Source of the DNA: an uncultured Spirochaetia bacterium
GTDB taxonomy: Bacteria > Spirochaetota > Spirochaetia > CAKZLE01
Reading direction: 5' to 3'
Assembly: GCA_937125225.1 (NCBI GenBank)
Contig: CAKZLE010000006.1
Coordinates: forward strand, 1 to 64,000
Length of the DNA stretch: 64,000 nucleotides
Both the position numbers and the translations under genes were made by a program. This document shows, piece by piece, positions 14,593 through 55,838 of this stretch. Below the pieces are notes generated by a model. The model saw nothing but the letters and a program-made list of their open reading frames with translations. It made no database searches and had not been told where the DNA came from. The number at the start of each line of letters is the position of its first letter. Positions within the stretch are counted from its first letter, which is position 1.

Positions 14593-14903
14593 GATCTTTC
14601 CTTGTCAGGTGTCCTTCCTAGACGTTTCTGTACCCCTGGAAGTACCACTTCTGCGATCATACTGATCGTTGCCTCACCGATCAGCACGTCATCAATCAGC
14701 ACAAAAGGAGGTCTCATCCCTGGGACTCTACAATGGCCGGTACACGTTTTCCCTTTTATCACTAGCACTTTGTCTATCTCCTTCTGTGAGATATCATGTG
14801 GTGCCCATATTCGGAGCAGTTCATCATTGAGTAACAAAAGGTCCGCTCCTCCCATAACAAAACAGGCAGTACCTGTACATATCTCAATAGAAATTGGTTC
14901 CAT
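14586..14903 (-). CDS. Thioredoxin-like [2Fe-2S] ferredoxin (NuoE/HydC type)
   Basis: This 105-residue small redox protein has the thioredoxin-fold [2Fe-2S] cysteine pattern: CTGTAC near the N-terminus and CTGHC further on, like the NuoE/HndA/HydC family. It probably passes electrons between the neighbouring hydrogenase or sensor and other carriers. The ATG at 14903 has GGGAGAAG just upstream and gives a natural N-terminus (MEPISIEICTG); a longer frame from 14951 overlaps the phosphatase gene. It lies 10 bp after the phosphatase stop and overlaps the hydrogenase start, so it is part of the five-gene hydrogenase operon. Confidence 0.85.
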   Translation of the reverse strand: MEPISIEICTGTACFVMGGADLLLLNDELLRIWAPHDISQKEIDKVLVIKGKTCTGHCRVPGMRPPFVLIDDVLIGEATISMIAEVVLPGVQKRLGRTPDKERSC

Positions 14904-52179: not shown

Positions 52180-53751
52180 ATGGCAATAAAATTCACTGAT
52201 CTAGATAAGACAACAACCTTTGCAGAACTTGCTGTATTACAACCAGCAGTCCTAAAAAAAGAGCTTACTAATACTAGAGTAGAAGCATATTCTATTCCAG
52301 CTGGAGGTTCCCTCAATTTCAATTATGCAGCATCACCAGTATATGAGACTCATATAGAACTCCTTCAAAAACTAGCAGACGAACAACAAGTCATAGAGAA
52401 ATATCATGAAGTAGCAAGTGGTTCAGTCATGAACACAGGAGAATCCCGTAAGGTCCTACACCATCTGACAAGAGGTAAACTCTCTGCGGATGTCATCGAA
52501 GATGATATCGATCTTGAGAGATTCTACGCTTCACAGTTGAAGAGGCTAGACTCTTTCTCGGATCAGGTCCATTCAGGAGTTATCAAAGGGTCAACCGGTA
52601 AAGCGTTTGATACCGTGGTACAGATAGGTATAGGAGGTTCTGATCTTGGTCCAAGAGCTTTGTATCTTGCACTAGAGGGAATCATGACAACTCAGAAGAT
52701 GAAAGCTGAATTTATCTCGAATGTGGACCCCGATGATGCAGCAGCAGTTTTACGAAGAGTGGACCCAGAGACAACCTTATTCATACTTGTGTCAAAAAGT
52801 GGGACGACTCAAGAGACCCTGACAAACAGAGACTTGGTATTACAAAAAGTAGCAGCGAAAAACATCAAAGGGTTCAACCCCTCAAAACATATGGTAGCGG
52901 TCACGAGTAACAGTAGTCCCCTAGCCTCCTCAGATGACAATCTAGAGAGTTTCTTCATAGATAACTATATCGGTGGAAGATATTCATCTACTAGTGCCGT
53001 TGGAGGACTTGTTCTCTCTTTAGCTTTTGGAGTAGACACCTTCAAGGACCTCCTAGGTGGAGCCCATGAAGCAGATGCCCAAGCACTACATCAAGATATT
53101 AAGAAGAATGCTGCGTTGATGGATGCACTCATTGGGCTCTATCAGAGAAATGTACTTGATCTGAGAACAACTGCCATCCTTCCCTATTCTCAGGCTCTAT
53201 CTAGATTCCCTGCACATCTGCAACAGTTAGATATGGAAAGTAATGGAAAGAGAGTCAACAGAGATGGACAACCTATTGATTATAAGACTGGTTATACCCT
53301 CTTCGGAGAACCTGGAACCAATGGTCAACATTCGTTCTATCAACATCTTCATCAGGGTACTGATGTGACCCCTCTGCAGTTCATCGGATTCTCAGAGTCA
53401 CAATATCAGGAGGATCTTATCATCGATGGTAGTACGAGTCAGCAGAAGTTAAATGCAAATCTAGCTGCCCAGATCATAGCCTTCGCAAAGGGACAAGAGC
53501 ATGAGAACCTGAATAAAGAGTTCCCTGGAGAACGATACTCGACTTTGATCCATGGAAAGCAACTGACCCCTAGGACACTGGGAGCTCTACTTGCTCATTT
53601 TGAGAATAAGGTCATGTTTCAGGGATTTCTGTGGAATGTGAACTCATTCGATCAAGAGGGTGTACAACTTGGAAAACTCTTGACGAGTAAAGTCCTATCT
53701 GGAGATATCGACGATAGTGCACTCGTATCTTTTGTCGAACTACTCTCATAG
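52180..53751 (+). CDS. pgi: Glucose-6-phosphate isomerase
   Basis: This 523-residue glycolytic enzyme interconverts glucose-6-phosphate and fructose-6-phosphate. Motifs include GIGGSDLGPRAL (about 157-168), LVSKSGTTQET (about 208-218), GGRYSSTSAVGG and PGTNGQHSFYQ with the catalytic His. The family signature near the C-terminus is only loosely kept. GGAGAAG precedes the ATG. It faces pfk across a 400-bp intergenic region that holds a candidate sRNA. Confidence 0.96.
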   Translation: MAIKFTDLDKTTTFAELAVLQPAVLKKELTNTRVEAYSIPAGGSLNFNYAASPVYETHIELLQKLADEQQVIEKYHEVASGSVMNTGESRKVLHHLTRGKLSADVIEDDIDLERFYASQLKRLDSFSDQVHSGVIKGSTGKAFDTVVQIGIGGSDLGPRALYLALEGIMTTQKMKAEFISNVDPDDAAAVLRRVDPETTLFILVSKSGTTQETLTNRDLVLQKVAAKNIKGFNPSKHMVAVTSNSSPLASSDDNLESFFIDNYIGGRYSSTSAVGGLVLSLAFGVDTFKDLLGGAHEADAQALHQDIKKNAALMDALIGLYQRNVLDLRTTAILPYSQALSRFPAHLQQLDMESNGKRVNRDGQPIDYKTGYTLFGEPGTNGQHSFYQHLHQGTDVTPLQFIGFSESQYQEDLIIDGSTSQQKLNANLAAQIIAFAKGQEHENLNKEFPGERYSTLIHGKQLTPRTLGALLAHFENKVMFQGFLWNVNSFDQEGVQLGKLLTSKVLSGDIDDSALVSFVELLS

Positions 53752-53770
53752 TATACCTAGCATTTCACAA

Positions 53771-53805
53771 ATATAAAGCCATGAGAGGATCTCATGGCTT
53801 TATAT
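53771..53805 (+). terminator. Terminator after pgi
   Basis: A perfect 15-bp inverted repeat (ATATAAAGCCATGAG / CTCATGGCTTTATAT) with a 5-nt loop. The U tract is formed partly by the stem, so it could act in both directions. Confidence 0.75.
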
Positions 53806-53851
53806 TTGCCCTTTCAAGGGGGATAAGCGGTTCATGAATTATTTTTTGGAC

Positions 53852-54037
53852 AAAAAAACCCCTCAGGGAAAAGGAGGTTAAAACCCTGAGGGGAACATCA
53901 AAAGGAGGTCGATGGAAAAAGTCTTATGCTCTTTCATAACGGTAAACAGATACCGGAACAAAAGGTTACATTCTTTTCCAACAACTTTATACTAAAGCAG
54001 TTGTTTGACCAACTAACCTAGCAATCATTGCTTTTAT
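53852..54037 (-). ncRNA. Candidate sRNA with two anti-Shine-Dalgarno motifs
   Basis: On the minus strand, between pfk and pgi, an RNA of about 185 nt is predicted. It ends in a strong terminator: CCCCTCAGGG / CCCTGAGGGG (53884-53893 and 53859-53868) followed by seven U. The 15-nt apical loop contains ACCTCCTTTT (53869-53878). A second copy of ACCTCCTTTT lies at 53900-53909 in a small CATC/GATG hairpin. These C/U-rich loops are complementary to AAAAGGAGGT ribosome-binding sites, a design known for regulatory sRNAs. It may be a separate transcript or a pfk 3'-UTR product. Confidence 0.5.
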
Positions 54038-54043
54038 GAATTT

Positions 54044-54072
54044 AAAATATCCATAACTCATAAATAAATCAA
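54044..54072 (-). promoter_or_regulatory. Candidate promoter of the sRNA
   Basis: On the minus strand TTGATT (54067-54072) lies exactly 17 bp from TATTTT (54044-54049), in the 3' region of pfk. The predicted start is near 54037. Confidence 0.4.
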
Positions 54073-54157: not shown

Positions 54158-55486
54158 CTAATTCATCATGGAATATGGCTGTCTGGTATTCTCTAGAACA
54201 TCTCTCCAGAGACTACCTTCAGTATCTACCCTGTTTCTCTCAGCTACAGCTACCTTGATGGGGATATGCACATATTTATTATTCACGAGGCTGATAAGAG
54301 TTTGAGTCTTTCCTGTCATTGCTGCATGTACTGCATGTGCACCAAGGCGTGAACAATAGATAGAATCATTAGGGTTTGCAGGAGCACTTCTGATGATATA
54401 ACTTGGATCGATATATTTGATGTTCACTTCGATTTCTTCATTACTAAAATACTCTTTCATCTCTGATTTAAGGAACTCTCCAATATTCTGCAATCGAATA
54501 TTACCCGAGGCATCAACCCTTTCACTCTTTTCCAAGAGACCCTGACCTGCTCCCTCTGCAACGAGGATCACCGCATGACCACGATCAAGGATCCTTTTTT
54601 TCAGATTCTCCAGCAGCCCATTGGGTCCCTCTAGATCAAAGGGATTCTCAGGGATTAGACAGAAGTTCACATCACTCATGGCAAGTGCCGTATGGGCAGC
54701 GATGAAGCCAGATTCGCGCCCCATGACTTTGACCAGCCCGATACCGTTGATAGAGTCTGTTGCTTCTATATGAGCACCTCGTACAGACTGTACAGCAGTA
54801 CTTACTGCTGTATCGAAACCGAATGAGCTTTGAATGAAAGAGAGATCGTTATCGATGGTCTTGGGGATACCTATGATGGCGATCTTGAGACCACGTTTCT
54901 TGATCTCCGCTCCTACCTCATCTGCTCCCCTGAGAGTACCATCACCACCGATAGTTATCAGGATGTTTATATTCATTCTTTCAAGAGAATCAACGATCTC
55001 CTCTACTCTATTACCACTTCCACGAGCAGATCCAAGAATGGTCCCACCCTTCATCTGGATATCATCTACGAGTTCGGGATCTAATGAGACCGGTTCGTAT
55101 GGACTGTCAGGCATAAGCCCTCTATACCCATATTGAATACCACTGATCCTTCGGACTCCATACCGATACCAAAAACATCTGACAACAGCTCTAATGACAT
55201 TATTCAGTCCAGGACAGATTCCACCACAGGTCACTACGGCTGCATGAACATGGGCAGGGTTGAAGTAGATCTTATCTCGAGGTCCTGCAATTTCGATCAG
55301 GTCCTGTTGATCAATCTCTGAGTCACCCTTCTGATCGATATGAGCATCAATGTTGTAAAGTATCCTCTCAGATTCATCCACATAATTCGCTATCTTGTCA
55401 CCACGAATTGATGACATCTCGATAGGCGAATCGATCTTTGCCACCCCTAATGATGGAATACTGAAGTCATAATGATTTGTCGCCAT
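54158..55486 (-). CDS. pfkA: 6-phosphofructokinase (ATP type, TP0108-like)
   Basis: This 442-residue enzyme phosphorylates fructose-6-phosphate. It shows VVTCGGICPGLNNVIR (about 83-98), TIGGDGT (about 177), PKTIDND (about 206-212) and MGRESGF. The Gly in GGDGT favours ATP, while the Lys in PKTIDND is of the PPi-like type. This Gly/Lys combination is found in the long plant/Treponema TP0108-like ATP-dependent clade. GGAG lies 7 nt before the ATG at 55486. Its start overlaps the upstream HTH gene by 20 bp. Confidence 0.92.
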   Translation of the reverse strand: MATNHYDFSIPSLGVAKIDSPIEMSSIRGDKIANYVDESERILYNIDAHIDQKGDSEIDQQDLIEIAGPRDKIYFNPAHVHAAVVTCGGICPGLNNVIRAVVRCFWYRYGVRRISGIQYGYRGLMPDSPYEPVSLDPELVDDIQMKGGTILGSARGSGNRVEEIVDSLERMNINILITIGGDGTLRGADEVGAEIKKRGLKIAIIGIPKTIDNDLSFIQSSFGFDTAVSTAVQSVRGAHIEATDSINGIGLVKVMGRESGFIAAHTALAMSDVNFCLIPENPFDLEGPNGLLENLKKRILDRGHAVILVAEGAGQGLLEKSERVDASGNIRLQNIGEFLKSEMKEYFSNEEIEVNIKYIDPSYIIRSAPANPNDSIYCSRLGAHAVHAAMTGKTQTLISLVNNKYVHIPIKVAVAERNRVDTEGSLWRDVLENTRQPYSMMN

Positions 55487-55838
55487 GTTCAAGCTCCTTG
55501 TTCAGTGTTTCTTTAAAGTCAATGAATCTATTCTGAGCATAATCTTTCACATCATGCTGAAATTCATCATATAATCCTACCAATTTCTTACCAGAAGTAG
55601 TGAGATAGGCTCCTTCTCGAGCCTCGCCCCCTCTTCTTCTCTCAAGTACTTGTATCCCAAGGTCTTTCTCGAGTGTCTTCAACATATTGAAAGCTTTCGA
55701 ATAGGAGATACCAAGTTCAGCGGCCGCACTACGTATAGATCCCGAATTCGAGATCTCCTGTAGTAGCCACAAGACACCGATGCCCATGAACTTCTCCTGA
55801 TTTCCATCTACAAGATATATCTTGAGTTTTAGTTCCAC
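55467..55838 (-). CDS. ModE-type winged-helix regulator without molybdate domain
   Basis: This 123-residue protein has an N-terminal LysR/ModE winged helix (about 20-90; GSIRSAAAELGISYSKAFNMLKTLEKDLG, then RRRGGEAREGAYLT) but no TOBE/molybdate-binding half. It is therefore an HTH-only relative of ModE, perhaps responding through a partner or simply DNA-binding. It starts at GTG (55838) with GGTGAG nearby. It overlaps the aminotransferase stop by 10 bp and the pfk start by 20 bp, a tightly coupled three-gene unit. Confidence 0.85.
   Translation of the reverse strand: MELKLKIYLVDGNQEKFMGIGVLWLLQEISNSGSIRSAAAELGISYSKAFNMLKTLEKDLGIQVLERRRGGEAREGAYLTTSGKKLVGLYDEFQHDVKDYAQNRFIDFKETLNKELEHGDKSL

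Follow-up and report, generated by a model that had tools for sequence, protein, structure and literature searches.

A conserved spirochaetal small RNA with two anti-Shine-Dalgarno motifs and a putative ECF sigma factor promoter

Background

The interval between pgi and pfk in the genome of an uncultured Spirochaetia bacterium raises the question whether it encodes a regulatory small RNA (sRNA) and, if so, by what factor such an RNA would be switched on and with which messages it would pair. The interval lies in a stretch of 64,000 nucleotides, called the window below. On its plus strand, pgi (52180-53751; glucose-6-phosphate isomerase, NCBIfam PRK14095 above cut-off) converges on the putative sRNA and is separated from it by a terminator-like inverted repeat (53769-53807). 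A pfk-like gene (54158-55492; open frame of 444 amino acids, putative name taken from an earlier reading) lies upstream on the minus strand, the same as that of the sRNA. An earlier note had proposed here a minus-strand anti-Shine-Dalgarno sRNA with two hairpin loops.

Streptococcal csRNAs, controlled by CiaR, contain between two stem-loops an unpaired region complementary to the Shine-Dalgarno (SD) sequence and AUG (PMC3091779). LhrC1-5 of Listeria, induced by envelope stress, pair with SD sequences through repeated CU-rich motifs present in a loop, a linker and the terminator loop (PMC4132741). RybB and MicA are sigma-E-dependent sRNAs (PMC1804206), and FoxI and FoxJ of Fusobacterium are sigma-E-controlled sRNAs with a C-rich seed directed against envelope protein mRNAs (PMC11005410). 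Cuckoo-type alphaproteobacterial sRNAs carry CCUCCUCCC loops (PMC3927594), and CcsR1-4, under alternative sigma factors, are processed 3'-UTR products (PMC8307010). In the literature that we searched, we found no account of a spirochaetal ECF response with an RNA arm.

Sequence comparison reveals in the interval a conserved predicted RNA on the minus strand, with constant loops, a covarying stem and a promoter of the type that precedes a sigma gene. We propose that this trans-acting sRNA of about 85 nt is probably the non-coding arm of a sigma-E-like ECF response and blocks Shine-Dalgarno sites.

Results

The 10-mer ACCTCCTTTT occurs twice on the minus strand of the interval, at 53900-53909 (anti-SD motif 1) and at 53869-53878 (anti-SD motif 2), the two copies spanning 41 nt end to end as the earlier note had stated. 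The window holds 3 copies against 0.14 expected, the third being located at 14703-14712 of the minus strand. As the whole 3.43-Mb genome contains only 11 copies, two of them within 41 nt, in loops, are not due to chance. Motif 2 lies inside the loop of an intrinsic terminator hairpin (53852-53893, minus strand; CCCCTCAGGG-TTTTAACCTCCTTTT-CCCTGAGGGG-TTTTTTT), whose 10-bp stem, 15-nt loop and U7 tail had likewise been described correctly. Around motif 1 a weak hairpin, CATCGACCTCCTTTTGATG (53896-53914, minus strand), can be drawn. The minus strand folds at -24.1 kcal/mol between 53840 and 53920 (z -3.7 versus shuffles). The predicted mature RNA (53851-53937, minus strand), delimited by promoter and terminator and with a 5' start placed by inference some 7 nt downstream of the -10 box, folds at -28.6 kcal/mol (z -4.1).

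When the 271-nt region was used as a blastn query, its last 60-120 nt, including both motifs, were matched in many families of the class, and ACCTCCTTT is kept at both places in an alignment of 16 sequences (144 columns). Motif 1 is present in nearly all relatives and motif 2 is near-invariant across families. A search of 84,980 species genomes for the exact double-motif pattern returned 37 stretches, all spirochaetal and Sphaerochaeta among them. When a covariance model, built in two versions (R1 and R2), was run at E 0.01 against 393 genomes of the phylum, the sRNA was recovered in 88, and the strong matches were confined to the window's own class, Spirochaetia. Within this class it was recovered at E 0.001 in 193 of 395 genomes, representing 67 of the 133 genera; about half of the sampled genomes, including the one designated G111, gave no match at that threshold. 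LhrC (score 19.7, threshold 110), anti-hemB, suhB/mmgR and RsmY all stayed below their Rfam gathering thresholds, no RsaE/RoxS match was listed, and the sequences of the relatives were likewise without Rfam match. The sRNA forms a new family of a known kind, one that no family in Rfam covers, and the existence of a real, widespread spirochaetal small RNA on the minus strand is well supported by these comparisons.

Structural conservation is concentrated in the terminator. In an alignment of 53 distinct sequences (54 matches), which was fitted to the covariance model so that covariation counts lean towards it, both sides are changed in 9 of the 10 stem pairs. Paired cells amount to 98.1%, a value that none of 500 shuffles reaches, versus 35-69% in slid controls. 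Double-sided changes of the stem are also visible in an alignment not fitted to the model, and while the stem covaries, ACCUCCUUU of the loop is nearly constant; the comparison among relatives thus bears out both the proposed sRNA and its conserved anti-SD sequences. The stem cells include 11 G-U pairs and no A-C, therefore the minus strand is the RNA strand, as had been suggested. The second of the two proposed hairpins fared less well than the terminator: it folds in 13 of 51 relatives, versus 8% of flank shuffles. Judged by these foldings it is not a conserved structure, and motif 1 forms a mostly unpaired linker.

Upstream of the sRNA there is a second conserved block, TGTAACC...GTTTA, with near-constant internal spacing. 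In the window it takes the form TGTAACC-N15-TGTTTA (53943-53970, minus strand), which motif comparison across sRNA loci and sigma genes marks as a putative promoter of the ECF sigma type. Counted within 50 nt upstream of the covariance-model start, TGTAAC-N16/17-[T/G]GTT directly precedes the sRNA in 35 of 54 loci versus 0.11% of shuffled sequences. The SigX promoter of B. subtilis, for comparison, is TGTAAC-N17-CGAC. The genome of the window has one short ECF gene, which follows cysS and is itself followed by an anti-sigma-like gene of the zf-HC2 type; this cluster of cysS, ECF factor and zinc-finger anti-sigma (contig G000:C23, locus L105, minus strand) is outside the window. The ECF gene is preceded by the same TGTAAC motif, an arrangement of the autoregulatory type. 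The motif is found upstream of all 32 examined orthologues of the cysS-linked gene. Thirty of these were surveyed in addition to the gene of the window's genome; one of the thirty (L153) has GTTGTC as its -10 element and falls outside the stricter version of the pattern. At 28 other sigma genes no copy of the motif lies within 700 nt. The sRNA and this sigma gene thus have promoters of a common type. The motif also precedes orthologous genes of likely FadL/PorV-type outer-membrane proteins in the window's genome (L123, G000:C11) and in a related one (L120, G001:C27), with families assigned by eye, as well as a gene of the window's genome judged by eye to be lipoprotein-like. These hits suggest an envelope regulon.

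G111, a 1.1-Mb genome that is probably T. pallidum, keeps the ECF sigma gene with its conserved motif. The gene occupies the position of TP0092 rpoE in T. pallidum, behind cysS. A search of G111 for a relic of the sRNA gave seven motif hits, one of them before the sigma gene, with no RNA-like sequence downstream by eye.

The promoter that the earlier note had assigned to the sRNA, TTGATT-N17-TATTTT, is indeed present farther upstream (54044-54072, minus strand). Counterparts of the form TTGATT-N17-TA occur in 9 of 29 ECF-type loci, versus 1.9% in shuffles, and in four loci (L001, L002, L003 and L074) the distal promoter has the same offset, -138 to -140. It is a plausible sigma70-like element that may act as a second promoter, but the ECF type is better supported. 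In Sphaerochaetaceae a sigma70-type TTGA..-N17-TA...T stands in front of nearly all sRNA loci in place of the ECF promoter, while the ECF sigma gene keeps its TGTAAC motif, so control appears to have been rewired there. On promoter sequence, ECF control is not universal among relatives. In two Sphaerochaetaceae genomes (L143 in G416, L144 in G361), the match to the ECF sigma gene contains one TAG, inside the gene or at its end.

These sigma70-type promoters, found in the window, in most Sphaerochaetaceae loci and in part of the ECF-type loci, together with the order pfk - sRNA - convergent pgi, conserved in many families including Sphaerochaeta, would suit a constitutive or metabolic sRNA, transcribed from the distal promoter or by readthrough from pfk and tuning glycolytic or general genes through its anti-SD loops. 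We consider this unlikely, because the ECF motif is far commoner than the distal promoter and is kept at near-constant distance. Moreover, Treponema-like genomes, in which neither pfk nor pgi was found beside the sRNA, nevertheless keep the ECF promoter. The earlier note had also allowed for a 3'-UTR sRNA of pfk. Since the sRNA has its own conserved promoter or promoters upstream, it is probably not simply a fragment of that 3'-UTR. The promoter sequences argue against an origin by processing from pfk, although some readthrough may occur.

The preferred reading, an ECF-controlled RNA that pairs with mRNAs, draws on what the two motifs resemble. The loops of the sRNA match GGATCACCTCCTTT of probable 16S rRNA ends in relatives. 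Only ACCUCCUUU(U) is constant, and GAUC, which precedes it in the rRNA, is not kept. CAT adjoins motif 1 in 30 of 51 distinct relatives and is absent from most Sphaerochaetaceae loci. Because of this CAT, the segment CTTTTTCCATCGACCTCCTTTT (53900-53921, minus strand), supported by CAT conservation and a duplex test, is complementary not only to an SD but also to an AUG start codon; by sequence, it is an unpaired SD- and AUG-complementary segment like that of the csRNAs.

The claim that the loops are perfectly complementary to strong ribosome-binding sites needs qualifying. In about 1.2 Mb of the window's genome the perfect site AAAAGGAGGT occurs at none of 1023 called gene starts, and genome-wide the perfect 10-mer target was found at no real gene start; pairing with real sites must therefore use shorter or split matches. 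Two further 10-mer matches before ATG in this genome belong to spurious frames of 5 and 21 codons. Strong sites are a minority, AGGAGG being present upstream of 78 of the 1023 genes, in calls that are home-made and rough and whose choice of starts favoured SD sites. In one related genome (G025), start regions of exported-type genes, a label equally home-made and rough, pair better with the sRNA. Two independent 400-kb samples give this result, with p 4e-6 in one and 7e-5 in the other, and the 24 flank-shuffled controls never match it in strength; the top candidates resemble, by eye, solute-binding lipoproteins. No such effect was seen in the window's own genome or in G024, and the preference for exported proteins is a lead, not a result.

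The match of the loops to ACCUCCUUU of probable 16S 3' ends, and the lack of a full 10-mer mRNA partner among the sampled gene starts, would also agree with a decoy that mimics the 16S 3' end and titrates a protein or assembly factor recognising CACCUCC (Era-like), with no pairing to mRNA. That only the short core is constant, the preceding GAUC of the rRNA being lost, speaks against it, and CAU beside motif 1 in many loci fits start-codon pairing; we regard such a decoy as improbable.

Scarcely credible, finally, is a strong terminator with nothing but sequence noise around it, or else a plus-strand product, either a small protein or a CsrA-type sponge. A terminator is present and the plus strand does have GGA in its loops and an SD-like start, but loop and promoter are conserved beyond the stem, and the G-U and A-C counts, together with the U-tract, speak against the sponge. 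The 27-codon plus-strand frame from 53912, whose conservation would have spoken for a peptide instead of the RNA, is not conserved: in relatives its counterparts measure 4-55 codons and encode unrelated residues, or lack a start altogether, so that the sRNA reading survives.

Discussion

From these features we infer transcription, sigma dependence, mRNA pairing and repression by the sRNA, as follows. Under stress, the anti-sigma would release the cysS-linked ECF factor, and the sRNA and the sigma gene would be induced together. Transcription of 53851-53937 (minus strand) would start from the promoter read by this one conserved, sigma-E-like factor. The resulting RNA would expose two near-copies of the anti-Shine-Dalgarno tail of 16S rRNA, one in the unpaired linker, in the window and in many related genomes beside CAU, which is complementary to AUG, and the other displayed in the terminator loop. 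By pairing with the SD and start regions of certain mRNAs it would block the loading of ribosomes, and translation of selected genes would be shut down. The weakest part of this proposal is that the targets are exported or envelope proteins.

In its unpaired SD/AUG-complementary segment, its presumably regulator-controlled promoter and its several copies in some genomes, the sRNA resembles the csRNAs. It differs from them in being predicted to depend on an ECF sigma factor instead of a two-component regulator and in having a second anti-SD motif in the terminator loop. CiaR promoters and streptococcal origin define the csRNA family, whereas our loci have ECF or sigma70-type promoters and the double-motif search found only spirochaetes; the likeness is one of design, and no common ancestry is claimed. 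With LhrC it has in common repeated anti-SD, CU-rich motifs, one of them in the terminator loop, and, if our prediction holds, induction by envelope stress, but LhrC is under LisRK two-component control and uses the motif UCCC in place of ACCUCCUUU. As a putative non-coding arm of an ECF response, with a promoter motif common with the sigma gene, it is comparable to RybB, MicA, FoxI and FoxJ. Unlike FoxI and FoxJ it carries two near-copies of the 16S tail and not a C-stretch; the likeness is again one of design, and envelope targets are only a lead here. Anti-SD sequences displayed in several loops recall the Cuckoo-type sRNAs and CcsR, from which it differs in stems and motif; the Rfam relatives are below threshold, and CcsR are derived from 3'-UTRs.

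The sRNA is conserved in a large part of Spirochaetia, and its promoter points to one controlling sigma factor, which offers a directly testable regulon. Treponema-like genomes are within its range; the sigma gene, for its part, persists in G111, the probable T. pallidum, where the sRNA was not found. If the proposal is right, another bacterial group joins those whose sigma-E-type responses carry an SD-blocking RNA. More speculatively, the sRNA might be a class-level riboregulator that uses ACCUCCUUUU and UUUUCAU to recognise the generic start of an exported gene, composed of SD, AUG and AAA lysine codons; we think this rather doubtful. Were it true, a single stress-induced RNA would throttle export as a category, and the strength of its SD would set the sensitivity of each gene.

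Two variations of the locus deserve mention. L037 and L049 have the sRNA duplicated in tandem, and both copies are preceded by an ECF-type promoter of their own. In L018 and L019 an inserted GC-rich hairpin stands in place of motif 1, and the anti-SD sequence is left only in the terminator loop.
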